Positions 32,801 to 38,740 of a DNA stretch of 56,172 nt are shown here, piece after piece; positions within the stretch are counted from its first letter, which is position 1, and each line of letters begins with the position of its first letter. A program made the translations under genes and the position numbers. Under the pieces are notes generated by a model. That model saw only the letters and a list, made by a program, of their open reading frames with translations, was not told the DNA's origin and did not search any database. The DNA is from an uncultured Bdellovibrionales bacterium (GTDB lineage: Bacteria > Bdellovibrionota > Bdellovibrionia > Bdellovibrionales > Bdellovibrionaceae): positions 1 through 56,172 of the forward strand of contig CAIYID010000043.1 of NCBI GenBank assembly GCA_903926205.1, written 5' to 3'.

Positions 32801-33943
32801 ATGAACGCAAAAAAGAAAACAAAATCCAAACAGGATTTGATTGAGTCAACAATGACCGCATTGGGTTCAGAGGACCCAACGGAATTATTTAACTCAATGA
32901 TTTCTTCTGCTGAAGACTCAGAGTCCTCTGAGCTTGAGGGCACTTCGGTGTTATTAGCGCCCTCTGAACTTGAGGGGACCTCCGTATTATCAGCACCTTC
33001 AGAGCATGAAGGCACTTCGGTGTTACCGAATACCTCTTATGCCGCAGAAATAGCGAGCGCTTCAGAATTTTCGGATTCCGCCAAATCTTTAGAAGCACCT
33101 GACTCTGTTGAATCAGCTGAGTTGCTAGAAAATTCCGCTCTTTCATCACTGGGAGACCAGCCAACTGCAGTGATCGGATTTGATCCAGAGAATGAAGATC
33201 TCCGTCTTGATCGTGAATCCGAAACAACTCTTGTTGCAGGAATTGGCCGTCGCTCAGAGGTGACTGTCGAAGAAAAAGTATCTTTTGGTCGAGCTCGCCC
33301 AAGCACTCGCACCTTGGGTTCTTCTACAGCCTTGGAGAGCGATGCACGCATCAATCAGGCTGAAAATCTTCGTATTTCTCAAGAACGGCTTTTGGATTTA
33401 GAAAAAGAATTAGAAAAATTACGTGAGGAGAACGAGCAATTCGCTTCCGCGAATGCGGCAGCGAAAGAACAAATTTTTGAACTCAGCCAAAAGGCGGAGC
33501 ATTTAGCGCAAGAGCTTTCTCAAAATTCGCAACAGTATCAGTCTGAAATTCAAATTTATCGGGATAGCGTGTCTTTGAAAGAGGTTGAACTCATTAAGTC
33601 ACGCACTAAAATCGACGAGCTCGAAACTCGACTACGTCAGGACCTGAGAAAAATCCGCGTGCGTGAGCGTGAACTGGAAAATCGTCTTGAGCTGACCCGC
33701 ATGGAAAAAGAGGCATTGTTGAGCGCGAAGGACGATGCGATACTAGATTTGAAGCGAAAACTGGAACAATCGAGCCACGAGGTCGAGGGTTATCGCCAAC
33801 GCGTGAGTGATTTGAATTCGCGAATTGAAACTAATAATGATCAATTTGCTCGAACAGTGAGGACTCTGCGTTTAGCGTTAACAAATCTTGAGGTGAGTGA
33901 TTCCGTTGGAGCGATGGGACCAATCTTAAAAAAAGCAGAGTAA
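32801..33943 (+). CDS. Coiled-coil protein with threonine-motif repeats (possible FHA ligand)
   Basis: A 380-residue cytoplasmic protein. The N-terminal 180 residues are acidic and probably disordered, rich in Ser, Glu and Ala. They hold three back-to-back 12-residue units (SELEGTSVLLAP and variants, residues 43-78), then PTAVIGFD (T121) and ETTLVAG (T141/T142). Residues from about 185 to 365 form a long coiled coil. No enzyme domain was found. The T-S-V-L and ETT sites resemble kinase-target and FHA-binding sequences (as in GarA), and an FHA-GGDEF gene lies 2.5 kb downstream. The gene is followed 3 bp later by a phosphoesterase gene. Confidence 0.75.
   Translation: MNAKKKTKSKQDLIESTMTALGSEDPTELFNSMISSAEDSESSELEGTSVLLAPSELEGTSVLSAPSEHEGTSVLPNTSYAAEIASASEFSDSAKSLEAPDSVESAELLENSALSSLGDQPTAVIGFDPENEDLRLDRESETTLVAGIGRRSEVTVEEKVSFGRARPSTRTLGSSTALESDARINQAENLRISQERLLDLEKELEKLREENEQFASANAAAKEQIFELSQKAEHLAQELSQNSQQYQSEIQIYRDSVSLKEVELIKSRTKIDELETRLRQDLRKIRVRERELENRLELTRMEKEALLSAKDDAILDLKRKLEQSSHEVEGYRQRVSDLNSRIETNNDQFARTVRTLRLALTNLEVSDSVGAMGPILKKAE
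32927..33034 (+). repeat. Three tandem 36-bp repeats encoding the EGTSVL units
   Basis: Three in-frame 36-bp units encode residues 43-54, 55-66 and 67-78 of the coiled-coil protein. Each centres on EGTSVL (Thr48, Thr60, Thr72). The units differ at many synonymous or third positions (for example GGCACTTCGGTGTTA against GGGACCTCCGTATTA), so the peptide rather than the DNA seems to have been kept. Confidence 0.85.
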
Positions 33944-33946
33944 AGC

Positions 33947-35089
33947 ATGGATGCAACCACCAACAGTGAGGCTTCTGCGACAGAAAATAGTTCGTCGCCC
34001 ACTCCGGTTATCAAAAAAATCAAAATAGTTATTAGTGATTTGCATTTAGGAAAAGGCCGAACCGTTTTTGGTGGTGGCACGAACTCGCTCGAAGAATTTT
34101 ATTATAGTGAGCGGCTGGTGGAGTTTTTCCAGTATTACAGCTCAGGACAGTTCAAAGATTTTGAAGTTGAATTGATTATCAACGGGGATTTTTTTAATTT
34201 TTTGCAGGTGGACTTTCGAGGGCACTTTCTGACTGTTTTTACCGAGGGAGTTTGTCTGGAAGTCATGAAATCCATTGTCGAAGGACATCGCAAGGTTTTC
34301 GAAGCGATGAAAACTTTTGCGGCTCGACCAGGCTGTAGTATCACTTATATCGTAGGAAATCACGACATGGCCATGCTCTGGCCTGCTTGCCGAGAATATT
34401 TGAACCAAACAATTGATGCCAATATTCGTTTCAAAAATATCGTGTATTTTTTTGATGGAGTGCATATTGAGCACGGCCATATGCATGAAGCGGCCAATCG
34501 AATGGACCCCCGCCGATTTTTTCTCAAAAAAGATTTGGCCGAGCCGATTCTTAATTTACCTTTTGGTTCACATTTTTTTGTCGAACTGGTTTTGAAGATC
34601 AAACAGAAGTATCCTTTTGTCGATAAGATTAGACCTTTTTCTCGTATGGTACGTTGGATTTTTCTCAATGAAACCGCCATGGCAATTTCTGGTTTCTTTC
34701 AATTAATTAAGTATTTTTTGAAGACAACTTTTTTAAAAGACCCCCGTCGACAGGTCTCCTTCAAAAGACTTTTTCAAATCATTGTAGAGAGTGCTATTTT
34801 TCCTGACTTGGGTGAGTCTGCACACAAGATTTTGGCTGATGAGAGAGTCAATATGGTCATTTTTGGCCATACTCATGTTTATCAGTACCGGCAGTGGGGT
34901 CAGGAAAAGGAATATTTTAACACAGGAACTTGGACAGAATTGACCAGTTTGGACATTGTGTCTTTAGGCAAAATCACAAAACTCACTTATGTTCTTTTAG
35001 AGTATCCTGAAAAGGGCGGACGTCCGCGGGGACGCTTAAAAGAGTGGCGAGGTTTTCACCGCATTGAGGAAGATGTTGCCGTTTCGTAA
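33947..35089 (+). CDS. Calcineurin-like metallophosphoesterase
   Basis: A 380-residue metallophosphoesterase with all metal-binding motifs in order: VISDLHLG, NGDFFNF, GNHDMAM, a histidine in IEHGHMHE, and GHTHVYQ. The fold resembles UDP-2,3-diacylglucosamine hydrolase (LpxH), but the enzyme is longer, with a hydrophobic-basic insertion near residues 190-270 that may touch the membrane. Substrate is therefore uncertain: lipid A precursor or another phosphodiester. It begins 3 bp after the coiled-coil gene stop, so the two are almost certainly one transcript. Confidence 0.88.
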   Translation: MDATTNSEASATENSSSPTPVIKKIKIVISDLHLGKGRTVFGGGTNSLEEFYYSERLVEFFQYYSSGQFKDFEVELIINGDFFNFLQVDFRGHFLTVFTEGVCLEVMKSIVEGHRKVFEAMKTFAARPGCSITYIVGNHDMAMLWPACREYLNQTIDANIRFKNIVYFFDGVHIEHGHMHEAANRMDPRRFFLKKDLAEPILNLPFGSHFFVELVLKIKQKYPFVDKIRPFSRMVRWIFLNETAMAISGFFQLIKYFLKTTFLKDPRRQVSFKRLFQIIVESAIFPDLGESAHKILADERVNMVIFGHTHVYQYRQWGQEKEYFNTGTWTELTSLDIVSLGKITKLTYVLLEYPEKGGRPRGRLKEWRGFHRIEEDVAVS

Positions 35090-35130: not shown

Positions 35131-36363
35131 ATGCCAACGATGAAATTGATTTCTCATTCTATTGAACATTCTGAAACTCATTTAACCAAAGCCAAAACAG
35201 GCTTGGATCTGTTTTTAAAACGACAAGACATTGGATTTTCACAACTGCCACAAAGAAAAAAACTTTGGAGTGATTCTTTTGAATTAGGAAGAAAAATTCG
35301 CCAGGAATTCACTGATCTAGTCGTGATTGGAATTGGTGGAAGTTCCTTGGGTGTGCGAGTCATTGCTGAAATTTTTCAAACTCCGCAATCCACACATCGT
35401 TTGCATTTTTGTGACAATGTCGATGCTTCAGAATTTCGTCGGCTGCTAACAGCTCTACCAGACTTATCAAAAACAGCTTGGTTAGCGATTTCCAAATCTG
35501 GAAATACCATTGAGACAATGATGGCCACAGATTTAGCACATCAAATCTATCAACGTCAGGGTTTGCGTTTCTTTGATCATTTTTTCGCTGTTTCAGAGCT
35601 AAAATCGAGTCCCTTGTTTGATTTGGCCAAAGCCAATCAACGACCATGCTTAGAAATTCCTCTCGATGTGGGGGGGCGTTTTTCCGTGCTCTCTCCGGTT
35701 GGAATGTTACCAGCGGCTTTTTTAGGATTGGATCCAGAGCAATTCCGCCTAGGTGCGGAAGCGGCTTTGCAAAATAAGGACTTAATCACTCAAGTGGTGG
35801 CGCAGACTCTTCAAAGTTTTGAGCGGCAAGAGTGGATTTCTCTTTTTTGGTATTACTGTTCTTGGATGAAAAATTTCGGTGGCTGGACTCAGCAACTTTG
35901 GGCGGAGTCTTTAGGTAAAAAATCAGATTTGAAAAATCAGCAGGCACCTCGTGCCAGCACTCCAGTTTCTGCCATTGGAGCTTGTGATCAGCATTCGATT
36001 TTGCAGCAGGTGATGGAAGGCTCTCGTGATAAATTTGTCATTTTTACGCGAGTGAAATCGGCGGAAGAATCAGATTTAATTCTCAGCAAGTCTTTATTTC
36101 CGATTCATGAATATTTGCAAGGACGAGGTTTGGGCGATTTACTCAGCGCCGAAGCTCTCGCGACTTCGCAAGCCTTGACTCAGGTCGGGGTTTCAAATTT
36201 GGTGATCGAGGTCAAAGACCTTTCTGCTAAAACAGTTGGCGAACTGTTTATGTTTTGGCAATTGGTGGTTGCGGGTTTAGGTCAATGTCTGGAGATCAAC
36301 GCGTTTGATCAACCCGGAGTGGAACTAGGCAAGAGACTGGCTCGACAGATTCTTCAATCCTAA
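35131..36363 (+). CDS. pgi: Glucose-6-phosphate isomerase
   Basis: A 410-residue sugar isomerase of the PGI family, shorter than the enterobacterial enzyme (about 550) as in many other bacteria. Signature parts are VIGIGGSSLGVRV, the sugar-phosphate loop AISKSGNTIET, GGRFSVLSPVGMLP and the catalytic base region near QQVMEGSRDKF. It interconverts glucose- and fructose-6-phosphate in the cytoplasm. GGGG stands about 8 bases before the ATG. The start lies 41 bp after the phosphoesterase gene and the FHA-GGDEF gene follows 39 bp after its end, suggesting one transcription unit. Confidence 0.95.
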   Translation: MPTMKLISHSIEHSETHLTKAKTGLDLFLKRQDIGFSQLPQRKKLWSDSFELGRKIRQEFTDLVVIGIGGSSLGVRVIAEIFQTPQSTHRLHFCDNVDASEFRRLLTALPDLSKTAWLAISKSGNTIETMMATDLAHQIYQRQGLRFFDHFFAVSELKSSPLFDLAKANQRPCLEIPLDVGGRFSVLSPVGMLPAAFLGLDPEQFRLGAEAALQNKDLITQVVAQTLQSFERQEWISLFWYYCSWMKNFGGWTQQLWAESLGKKSDLKNQQAPRASTPVSAIGACDQHSILQQVMEGSRDKFVIFTRVKSAEESDLILSKSLFPIHEYLQGRGLGDLLSAEALATSQALTQVGVSNLVIEVKDLSAKTVGELFMFWQLVVAGLGQCLEINAFDQPGVELGKRLARQILQS

Positions 36364-36402
36364 CATTGTCATCGTGGTCTTTCCTTATCTATAATTTGTG
36401 AT

Positions 36403-37323
36403 ATGTCTAATGGTGAAGATGTTTCGGAAAAAACGAGTATTATAACAGGAGATACCTTTAGTGGTAATCTCAAGCAAGCCGAGCAAACTCCAGCGGCTTT
36501 TGTTGTTCAGATTGGCCCTCAGGGCTACGTTGGTAAACAGTTTTCACTCACTGGTAGTGAGTATATCATTGGGCGAAATCCAGAGAGTTCTATTTTTATC
36601 GATGATAAAAGTGTCAGCCGCAGCCATGCTCGTGTGATGGTGGTGGGCACTGAAGTGACAATTCAAGATTTGGGGTCTTCCAATAAGACAACAATCAATA
36701 ATACCATTCTAACTCCCATGACGGTGCATTGTTTAAAGAATAACGATCAAGTGAAGTGCGGAAATGTGATTTTGAAATACTATGCCCTTGGTAGTCTGGA
36801 TGCTGCGACAAATAAGCAGCTCAATGAAAAATCTGAAAAAGATGCGATGACTTCAGCCTATAATAAAGGGGCGTTGCTCGAGCGTGGACCTGAAGCCATC
36901 AAAAGAGCAGAATTTTTAAAAGAGAATTTAAGCATCATTGTGTTCGATATCGATTTCTTTAAAAAGATCAATGATACTTACGGCCACCCAGCTGGTGATA
37001 GCGTGCTTCGGGAATTGGGTGGTATTGTCACTAAGAAGTTGATTCGCGCGAATGATTATTTTGCTCGTTACGGGGGAGAAGAATTTGTTTTGATTCTTTC
37101 TGGTGCGCCTCAAAAAAATGCGGAAGAGGTCGCAGAACGTGTTCGATCTACCATTGAGAGCAATGAATTTAATTTTGAAGGCAAAAAAATTTCTGTTACA
37201 GTGTCCCTTGGCGTTGCTACGCGCAAAGATGAAACACAGTGGAACTCTCTTTTTGAGCGCGCAGATAAAGCACTGTATCAATCAAAACAAAACGGACGAA
37301 ACAAAGTCACTGTTGCACCTTAA
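36403..37323 (+). CDS. FHA-domain diguanylate cyclase (DgcB-like)
   Basis: A 306-residue cytoplasmic protein. The N-terminal tail reads EKTSIITGDTF (T11, T16). An FHA domain follows (about 35-128; IIGRNPESSIFIDDKSVSRSHA), then a GGDEF domain with active site YGGEEF (224-228) and an inhibitory c-di-GMP site R215-A-N-D218 correctly placed 5 residues ahead. It should make c-di-GMP. The arrangement equals Bdellovibrio DgcB, needed for prey invasion, whose FHA domain is reported to bind its own phosphorylated N-terminal tail. Orthology is likely but not proven here. Confidence 0.9.
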   Translation: MSNGEDVSEKTSIITGDTFSGNLKQAEQTPAAFVVQIGPQGYVGKQFSLTGSEYIIGRNPESSIFIDDKSVSRSHARVMVVGTEVTIQDLGSSNKTTINNTILTPMTVHCLKNNDQVKCGNVILKYYALGSLDAATNKQLNEKSEKDAMTSAYNKGALLERGPEAIKRAEFLKENLSIIVFDIDFFKKINDTYGHPAGDSVLRELGGIVTKKLIRANDYFARYGGEEFVLILSGAPQKNAEEVAERVRSTIESNEFNFEGKKISVTVSLGVATRKDETQWNSLFERADKALYQSKQNGRNKVTVAP

Positions 37324-37616
37324 CTATATCTCTACGGCAAGTTAGCAAATTTGACTGATTTTCTTGTTTATCTTTCTTCTTGAATTTTTGCGAGAAACCA
37401 TCGATGCATAAGAAAATCTAATGCATAAAATCAAAAATAATTTCAAGTACTTAGTGCCATTTTGCATCTAAAGTAAGCATTCACATTGGCCTCTGCATTG
37501 CAGTGATAATTCACAAGAAGAGTAGTGGAGGTTAAGAAGTTATTTTATGCGACTTGAGTCCGACGTCAGAGAAAAAGTTACAAAAGTTTAACCGAAATTC
37601 GACAGGGGTGTTTCCA
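37324..37616. other. Intergenic region ahead of the ECF sigma operon
   Basis: 293 bp without a supported gene. It must hold the promoter of the sigma operon; a TGATAAT at about 37503-37509 is the best -10-like sequence, without a convincing -35. I could not recognise an ECF-type autoregulatory promoter or a terminator for the preceding gene. Confidence 0.5.
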
Positions 37617-38237
37617 ATGAAAGACAAGTTTGAAAGTAACACAGATCTAGAACTCGTTGATCTTGTGAAGACAGGAGACAGAAAGGCTTTTTCAACTTTG
37701 GTACGGCGTCATCAAAAAGCAGCATTGCGTTTAAGCCTGAGATTTATGAAAGATCTTGATGCGGCAGAGGATGTGACTCAAGAAGCTTTCATTAAGGCCT
37801 ATGAACGAATTGCATCTTTCGAAGGAAGAGCCAGTTTCAAAAGTTGGCTTTTTCAAATTGCTGTGAACACAGCAAAAAATAAACTCCGCGAACGTCGAGA
37901 CACTTCGGATATCATGGATATGCAATTGGGAGTGTCTGCTGTGGCGGAAGCAACTCTTGTGCATAGCTCTGTGGCAAATTTGTTACATAAATTTGTTGAG
38001 GAGTTGCCACCTCGTCAGCGCACGGCTCTCGTTTTAAGAGTCTATGAAGATCTTAGCTTTAAAGAGATCGCAGATATTATGGAGTGTCCTTACGACACCG
38101 CAAAGGCAAACTATCGTCATGCCCTGATGAAGCTCAAAACTGACCTCGAGGAGCATCAGGACTTAAAAAAATGGAGTGAAGAGGTTGGAGGATTTGTCAT
38201 GGAAATGACTCGCAAGGTTGCGGAGGCTGAATCATGA
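37617..38237 (+). CDS. ECF-type RNA polymerase sigma factor
   Basis: A 206-residue sigma-70-family factor with regions 2 and 4 only. Region 2 contains RFMKDLDAAEDVTQEAFIKAYERI and the promoter-melting stretch FKSWLFQIAVNTAKNKLRERR. Region 4 is LPPRQRTALVLRVYEDLSFKEIADIMECPYDTAKANYRHALMKLK in pattern, with its helix-turn-helix. The ATG at 37617 has AGGGG 8 bases upstream; an in-frame TTG at 37554 lacks one. It overlaps by 4 bases (ATGA) a single-pass membrane protein that is probably its anti-sigma factor. Confidence 0.93.
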   Translation: MKDKFESNTDLELVDLVKTGDRKAFSTLVRRHQKAALRLSLRFMKDLDAAEDVTQEAFIKAYERIASFEGRASFKSWLFQIAVNTAKNKLRERRDTSDIMDMQLGVSAVAEATLVHSSVANLLHKFVEELPPRQRTALVLRVYEDLSFKEIADIMECPYDTAKANYRHALMKLKTDLEEHQDLKKWSEEVGGFVMEMTRKVAEAES

Positions 38238-38740
38238 ATGATGAGAAAAAGGCTCCCCCAGATTCCAGTAAAAAGAATTGGTGGATGGAGATTGACCACC
38301 AGTCAGATGTCGAGAATCTAGAGGGCTCTAAAGAAGCTAAGGACCTATTACTGGAGTTTGATGATGTGGAGGTTCCAGAGGATGATGAGTTTTTCAATCG
38401 CCTTCATAGTAAGATTATGATCGGTGTCGAAATGACCACACAGAAAAAGGATGGACGGACTTTTTGGCAGAAAAACCAAAAGATTGTCCGAGGATTTACG
38501 GCCGCTGCCATAGTCTTGTCTGTCCTTTTAGTGAGTCTTGAGACTCAGCAGATTCATCTAGCGTCCGATGCGACAGATCAGGTTTTATCCGATGCCGTTT
38601 CAAGATCTCCAGATATTCAAGAAACAGTTTTGGTTTATGAAAACAAAGATGACTTTTTTGTAGACCTAGCTCAGGAAAGCCTCGATCATTTATCTGTGGA
38701 CCGCTTACAAGGTCTTATCGGGTCGCAGGTGAATGATTAA
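38234..38740 (+). CDS. Putative membrane anti-sigma factor
   Basis: A 168-residue protein with an acidic cytoplasmic N-terminal half (to about residue 88), one transmembrane helix (IVRGFTAAAIVLSVLLVSL) and a periplasmic tail of about 60 residues. The position, overlapping the sigma gene, and the topology are those of an anti-sigma factor. The usual zinc-binding H-x3-C-x2-C motif of that class is absent, since the protein has no cysteine. It would be a zinc-free or divergent type. The role is inferred from context. Confidence 0.7.
   Translation: MNDEKKAPPDSSKKNWWMEIDHQSDVENLEGSKEAKDLLLEFDDVEVPEDDEFFNRLHSKIMIGVEMTTQKKDGRTFWQKNQKIVRGFTAAAIVLSVLLVSLETQQIHLASDATDQVLSDAVSRSPDIQETVLVYENKDDFFVDLAQESLDHLSVDRLQGLIGSQVND

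Follow-up and report, generated by a model that had tools for sequence, protein, structure and literature searches.

Gene order and the coiled-coil protein

The window, i.e., the whole stretch of 56,172 nucleotides from an uncultured Bdellovibrionales bacterium that was analysed, contains, in this order, the genes for RlmN, PfkB, a coiled-coil protein, a metallophosphoesterase, phosphoglucose isomerase (PGI) and the diguanylate cyclase DgcB. The genes and protein segments concerned are:

32801..33943, plus strand: coiled-coil protein of 380 residues, Bd0739 orthologue by sequence and position; no Pfam or NCBIfam match above the curated cut-off and no PDB relative
32801..32914, plus strand: residues 1-38, conserved Lys-rich N-terminal segment (MNAKKKTKSKQDLIESTMTAL...; alignment A1) with two short helices predicted by AlphaFold2 at residues 6-22 and 26-38
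32915..33331, plus strand: residues 39-177, arm predicted by AlphaFold2 to be disordered (pLDDT < 50), with all candidate Thr sites inside
33329..33898, plus strand: residues 177-366, a single long helix (coiled coil) in the AlphaFold2 model, the most conserved part in the family
33947..35089, plus strand: calcineurin-like metallophosphoesterase (PF00149) at the Bd0740 position, candidate phosphatase, neighbourhood kept
35131..36363, plus strand: PGI (PF00342) at the Bd0741 position, not found between the phosphoesterase and DgcB genes in many relatives
36403..37323, plus strand: DgcB orthologue, a diguanylate cyclase built of tail, FHA domain and GGDEF domain (PF00498, PF00990; best PDB match 6hbz, E 2e-111)

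The coiled-coil protein is 31-40% identical to the other 19 sequences of alignment A1, in which an ERELENRLE block is invariant. It is similar to Bd0739 of Bdellovibrio bacteriovorus in the coiled coil and at the N terminus, and its gene lies upstream of those for the phosphoesterase, PGI and DgcB. This gene order puts the protein in the position of Bd0739, of which, judged by sequence and neighbourhood together, it is the orthologue. The two proteins have in common the neighbourhood through to DgcB, the Lys-rich N terminus, the long coiled coil and the disordered arm with two Thr sites, designated A and B; they differ in that the window protein alone adds three EGTSVL units and has no Lys at position -1 of sites A and B. 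One of the relative genomes, G003, is taken here to be that of strain HD100; its DgcB, like that of G006, matches PDB entry 6hbz without a mismatch.

A relative of the coiled-coil protein is found in 62 of the 66 genomes of the family, covering all 20 genera, with further members in the order, and DgcB is present in 61 of the 66. When the window's genome is left out, 60 of the other 65 have both genes, four have neither and one has the coiled-coil gene alone; none has DgcB alone. The phosphoesterase gene adjoins the coiled-coil gene in all 60 family loci taken, and DgcB lies in the same stretch in 51 of them, a count that is limited by stretches ending at a contig edge. Most other loci of the order hold the coiled-coil, phosphoesterase and DgcB genes within 8 kb. 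Thus, the association of these three genes is conserved throughout the order. In several Bdellovibrio species, DgcB is encoded some 12-16 kb from the coiled-coil gene; hence, adjacency of the two genes is not required, which counts against a scaffold for DgcB. The phosphoesterase at the Bd0740 position has been suggested to act as a phosphatase (PMC6733907).

Threonine motifs in the disordered arm

Five candidate sites with Thr at their centre were located in the arm. Ranks refer to a profile, discussed below, for which DgcB tails were taken from other species.

32927..32962, plus strand: repeat unit 1, SELEGTSVLLAP, with T48 (TRF; profile rank 91 of 12,524 Thr sites)
32963..32998, plus strand: repeat unit 2, SELEGTSVLSAP, with T60 (TRF; rank 18 of 12,524)
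32999..33034, plus strand: repeat unit 3, SEHEGTSVLPNT, with T72 (TRF; rank 425 of 12,524)
33161..33178, plus strand: conserved site A, PTAVIG, with T122; counterpart of (E)DKTVSIQ in relatives; of 96 orthologues, 86 have Thr here and 2 have Ser
33221..33241, plus strand: conserved site B, ETTLVAG, with T142 (T143 possible too); counterpart of DADKTVAVxGFA; of 96 orthologues, 74 have Thr here and 3 have Ser

An earlier note on this DNA had described three tandem 12-residue units, each with EGTSVL, followed by PTAVIG and ETTLVAG, and all of these are indeed present in frame, as seen in the translation and with TRF (period 36, 2.8 copies, score 125). The EGTSVL copies lie at 32936-32953, 32972-32989 and 33008-33025 within the units at 32927-33034. 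The span given for the whole array, 32927-33226, starts correctly and ends too early, since ETTLVAG runs to 33241. The units had also been said to vary at third codon positions while the peptide is kept; this holds for units 1 and 2 (7 synonymous and 1 non-synonymous codon differences) and units 2 and 3 (7 and 4), but not for units 1 and 3 (2 and 4). The EGTSVL peptide itself is identical in all three units.

EGTSVL is absent from every other sequence when the 96 orthologues, the window's included, are compared, and the coiled-coil gene has no match in the one further genome of this genus, which is 54% complete. By this comparison, the triplet was added in the lineage of the window, where there are five candidate sites instead of two. 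Such a distribution, together with a 36-base tandem period of the kind that slippage or unequal crossing over typically produces, might be taken to mean that the triplet arose by recent tandem duplication within a disordered linker and has no role of its own, which would leave open a role for sites A and B. This is, however, highly improbable, considering that the differences between units 1 and 2 are nearly all synonymous, that EGTSVL is kept in all units, and that the units fit the Thr motif found throughout the family. A different Thr repeat is present at the same place in an orthologue from another genus (L094), where ATQIA occurs twice in the arm.

In most Bdellovibrio, site A reads (E)DKTVSIQ, and the family consensus around the Thr is [DE]-[KR]-T-V-x-[VI]; in the HD100 protein, the Thr of site A is T187 and that of site B is T209. 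When one sequence per genus was taken (19 sequences), the pattern [DE]-x-T-x-x-[VILMF] occurred 27 times in the arms against 6.3 times after shuffling, i.e., about fourfold enrichment, and none of 5000 shuffles reached 27, whilst the version with Ser was not enriched (14 against 14.1 expected). Without the window protein, the Thr motif was still found 23 times against 5.8, a number likewise reached in none of 5000 shuffles. This test was added because the family-wide one, in which 61 arms gave 140 Thr motifs against 24.5 and 42 Ser motifs against 61.0, uses related sequences. Among the 35 sequences of the order outside the family set, the Thr motif (44 against 8.9) and, to some extent, the Ser motif (31 against 16.2) were both enriched; since Ser sites are enriched as well in these other families, the one-per-genus family set provides the cleanest control. 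Thus, the shuffles with their Ser control rule out chance or amino-acid composition as the source of the motif. Position by position, D/E at -2 (1.9-fold), K/R at -1 (2.7-fold) and VILM at +3 (1.8-fold) are enriched around Thr, and no such enrichment is seen around Ser. With four instances in 165 residues, the window protein ranks first in density of [DE]xTxx[VILMF] in a sample of 691 proteins encoded in the same genome, the sample consisting of stretches that cover roughly a fifth of that genome and contain 12,524 Thr sites. The strict motif is missing in some divergent orthologues, i.e., 5 of 61 in the family and 5 of 35 outside.

Alignment of orthologues, proposed in the earlier note as a check, shows that most of them have the Thr motifs, but not the EGTSVL units, which only the window protein has. 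With Thr rather than Ser, a hydrophobic residue at +3 and a context that is predicted to be disordered, sites A and B look like conserved, Thr-specific landing sites for FHA domains. The resemblance to ETTS-type sites that had been proposed is partial. The tails of actinobacterial GarA and OdhI, with their ETTS motif, are Thr-rich and read by an FHA domain after phosphorylation, and ETTLVAG of the window resembles ETTSVF; the family consensus is nevertheless a different one, and EGTSVL is confined to the window among the 96. Furthermore, GarA and OdhI are FHA proteins that are switched by binding in cis, whereas no FHA domain was matched by Pfam in the window protein, which places it outside that class.

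Two readings do without FHA binding. In one, the threonines are phosphorylated and the change in charge tunes binding to RomR, assembly of the coiled coil or clustering at the pole. The predicted disorder of the arm beside a long helix and the D/E-K/R that precedes the Thr sites, which gives them the look of kinase substrates, are consistent with this idea, but the near absence of replacement by Ser and the hydrophobic residue at +3 fit FHA reading better, and we consider it improbable. In the other, the motifs serve in unphosphorylated form as linear motifs for some other partner, such as the pilus or the RomR or MglA network, with the Thr fixed for structural reasons. Phosphorylation of the arm is indeed inferred, and the unphosphorylated tail of DgcB also occupies the FHA cleft in crystals (PMC6733907). 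Against this stand a consensus that fits known pThr ligands of FHA domains and the conservation of kinase and FHA genes in the same genomes, which make this option very improbable.

DgcB, the kinase and the possible readers

The DgcB of the window is 60% identical to that of the genome taken as HD100 and has FHA and GGDEF domains and, as read from its translation (RANDYFARYGGEEF), a GGEEF motif and an RxxD I-site. Its tail is the following.

36427..36459, plus strand: DgcB tail EKTSIITGDTF, residues 9-19, in which T11 corresponds to T14 of HD100; Thr in 52 of 52 orthologues

A similar tail in the FHA-GGDEF protein at 36403 had been pointed out from the sequence, and this observation is borne out: it corresponds to the published ligand around pT14 of DgcB. 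The HD100 phosphopeptide NSDNLEK(pT)SIVASDT was co-crystallised with the FHA domain of DgcB, which thus binds its own tail; hydrophobic residues at -3, +2 and +3, Glu at -2 and Ser at +1 were named as the features of this ligand (PMC6733907). T14 and the FHA residues R61, S75, R76 and N97 are invariant in all 52 DgcB sequences of the family, whilst the DgcB of the window has Ser at the position of T96. A second Thr in the tail (T18 in the window, in a DTF motif; 36403-36459) is, like T11, invariant in the 34 sequences of alignment A2 and may be a second phosphosite.

Two further observations concern the surroundings of dgcB. A promoter-like site directly precedes it at 36366-36395 (TTGTCA, 18 nt, TATAAT; 11 of 12 positions), and the gene may have a promoter of its own. 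At 37554-38740 of the window, a gene for an ECF-like sigma factor of the sigma-70 family is directly followed by one for a protein of 168 residues with a hydrophobic stretch and no Pfam match, perhaps its anti-sigma factor.

The sequence LEGTSVL of units 1 and 2 has all the features named for the DgcB ligand (PMC6733907). The EGTSVL units and the DgcB (Bd0742) tail are alike in that a Thr lies in a disordered segment, preceded by Glu at -2 and followed by Ser at +1 and by hydrophobic residues at +2 and +3; among the units, only 1 and 2 also have the hydrophobic residue at -3. They differ in that the DgcB ligand is on the same chain as the FHA domain, whilst the array would act in trans, with several sites, on a coiled-coil adapter. 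When the 12,524 Thr sites of the proteome sample were scored with the DgcB-tail profile, the DgcB tail came first, T60 18th, ETTLVAG (scored as T143) 61st and T48 91st; three of the five motifs of the window are, thus, in the top 0.8%, whilst T72 came 425th and T122 fell outside the first 600. Across the 96 orthologues, 54 of 914 Thr sites in the arms score beyond the 99.5% quantile of the sampled proteome, where about 5 are expected, but a site in this top 0.5% is present in only 45 of the 96. The likeness of most arm sites to the DgcB tail is, on these profiles, moderate.

Above the Pfam cut-off, the genome of the window has a single kinase of the Hanks type, a kinase-PEGA protein with an orthologue in 63 of the 66 genomes. 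L010, considered as a second kinase, has the look of a UbiB-type protein, falls below the cut-off and was not counted. For the tail of DgcB, Bd3148 has been suggested as the kinase (PMC6733907). From its position in the chromosome, the kinase copy at 3,060 kb in HD100 is taken to be Bd3148. Kinases of Bdellovibrio contain in their linker the sequence EDKTVVTQT or EDKTIVTQT, which is close to EDKTVSIQ of site A and is possibly a conserved autophosphorylation site; one of them (L231) carries it twice. Since this EDKT(V/I)VTQT motif is absent from the linker of the window's own kinase and has Thr at +3, the similarity is suggestive only.

There are 11 FHA matches in the genome of the window and 9 in HD100, and most other genomes of the family have 7-11. 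FHA counts do not single out DgcB as the sole possible reader, since nearly every genome of the family has several FHA domains, the one exception (G027) being 54% complete. On another contig of the window's genome, a cluster of FHA genes (L001, L003 and L008; G000:C3:56773-63102) with four FHA matches encodes candidate alternative readers; it is possibly the counterpart of the Bd0474 region. The sites might, then, be pThr ligands for another FHA protein, e.g., Bd0474 of the type IVb (Tad) pilus cluster or one of its neighbours, and connect polarity to pili and attachment instead of to c-di-GMP. Besides the number of FHA matches and the cluster, this reading can draw on mutant phenotypes, as mutants of Bd0739, TadC and PilT all fall in one attachment-defective class, and killing requires the FHA protein Bd0474. 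Against it, the neighbourhood that is kept through the order is with DgcB, and none of the seven other FHA proteins of the window's genome that were looked at has a DgcB-like tail, so that only DgcB is tied to this type of motif. We regard another reader as unlikely, and DgcB is favoured on neighbourhood and tail similarity.

A possible phosphothreonine docking arm at the invasive pole

Bd0739 is one of the two top hits in proximity labelling of RomR and is likely its direct partner, and its foci colocalise with RomR at the invasive pole in attack phase (PMC11025332). Transposon mutants (Bd0739::tn) are defective in attachment, killing and rounding (PMC6561027). Neither study links Bd0739 to FHA signalling or mentions Thr motifs in it (PMC11025332; PMC6561027). 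DgcB was seen in the RomR proxisome as well, outside the significance threshold. A DgcB-mCherry fusion was diffuse at all stages (PMC3271064). Loss of DgcB has its described effect at prey entry, whereas loss of Bd0739 blocks attachment; thus, recruitment of DgcB cannot be all that Bd0739 does. A literature search, with most subscription papers and preprints outside its reach, found no phosphoproteome of Bdellovibrio or later study of kinase and FHA signalling.

On the whole, the evidence supports the view that this polar predation protein carries a phosphothreonine docking arm of the FHA type. The Bd0739 orthologue would be a coiled-coil adapter of the pole that invades the prey. Its arm would be phosphorylated at T48, T60, T72, T122 and T142, the most likely enzyme being the cell's single Hanks-type Ser/Thr kinase (orthologue of the one taken to be Bd3148), and would then be bound by FHA domains, first of all by that of DgcB, whose own tail holds the same kind of site. 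By binding in trans, the arm would concentrate DgcB at the pole marked by RomR, or compete with the tail of DgcB in cis, or both, and would thereby switch c-di-GMP output upon contact with prey; the neighbouring metallophosphoesterase could reset the Thr sites. Phosphorylation, the identity of the kinase, binding and recruitment are the steps that we infer here, whilst the partnership with RomR, the attachment defect and the binding of the DgcB tail to its FHA domain are published. As a whole, the explanation that Bd0739-type arms are phospho-Thr arrays read by FHA domains, DgcB's foremost, is a plausible one that we hold tentatively, at somewhat under even chances.

The idea of a multivalent phospho-scaffold, put forward in the earlier note, thus gains evolutionary support from the conserved, Thr-specific sites and the kept neighbourhood with an FHA cyclase, and the predicted disorder agrees with it. 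In its constitutive form it does less well, since both the diffuse DgcB-mCherry and the failure of Bd0739 mutants to attach speak against a simple, permanent anchor for DgcB. Transient recruitment of DgcB on prey contact, competition with its cis tail or a different reader are possible. In its most specific form, in which the RomR-bound array captures DgcB via the FHA domain when the single Ser/Thr kinase fires on prey contact, c-di-GMP would rise locally at the invading pole and license entry into the prey; this is possible, though doubtful.

A Hanks-type kinase, a pThr site and an FHA protein also control a contact-dependent attack apparatus in the PpkA-Fha1 threonine phosphorylation pathway of type VI secretion. 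The case of the window would follow the same logic of kinase, pThr and FHA domain, with different proteins and a different output.

These observations bear on two questions about predation, i.e., how contact with prey becomes DgcB activity and what Bd0739 does. The Thr array offers a hypothesis at the level of residues that joins RomR polarity, Ser/Thr phosphorylation and c-di-GMP and that, if true, would link two known predation factors. Even with a reader other than DgcB, the array would represent a newly noticed candidate module for phospho-dependent docking on a predation protein that is conserved throughout the order.
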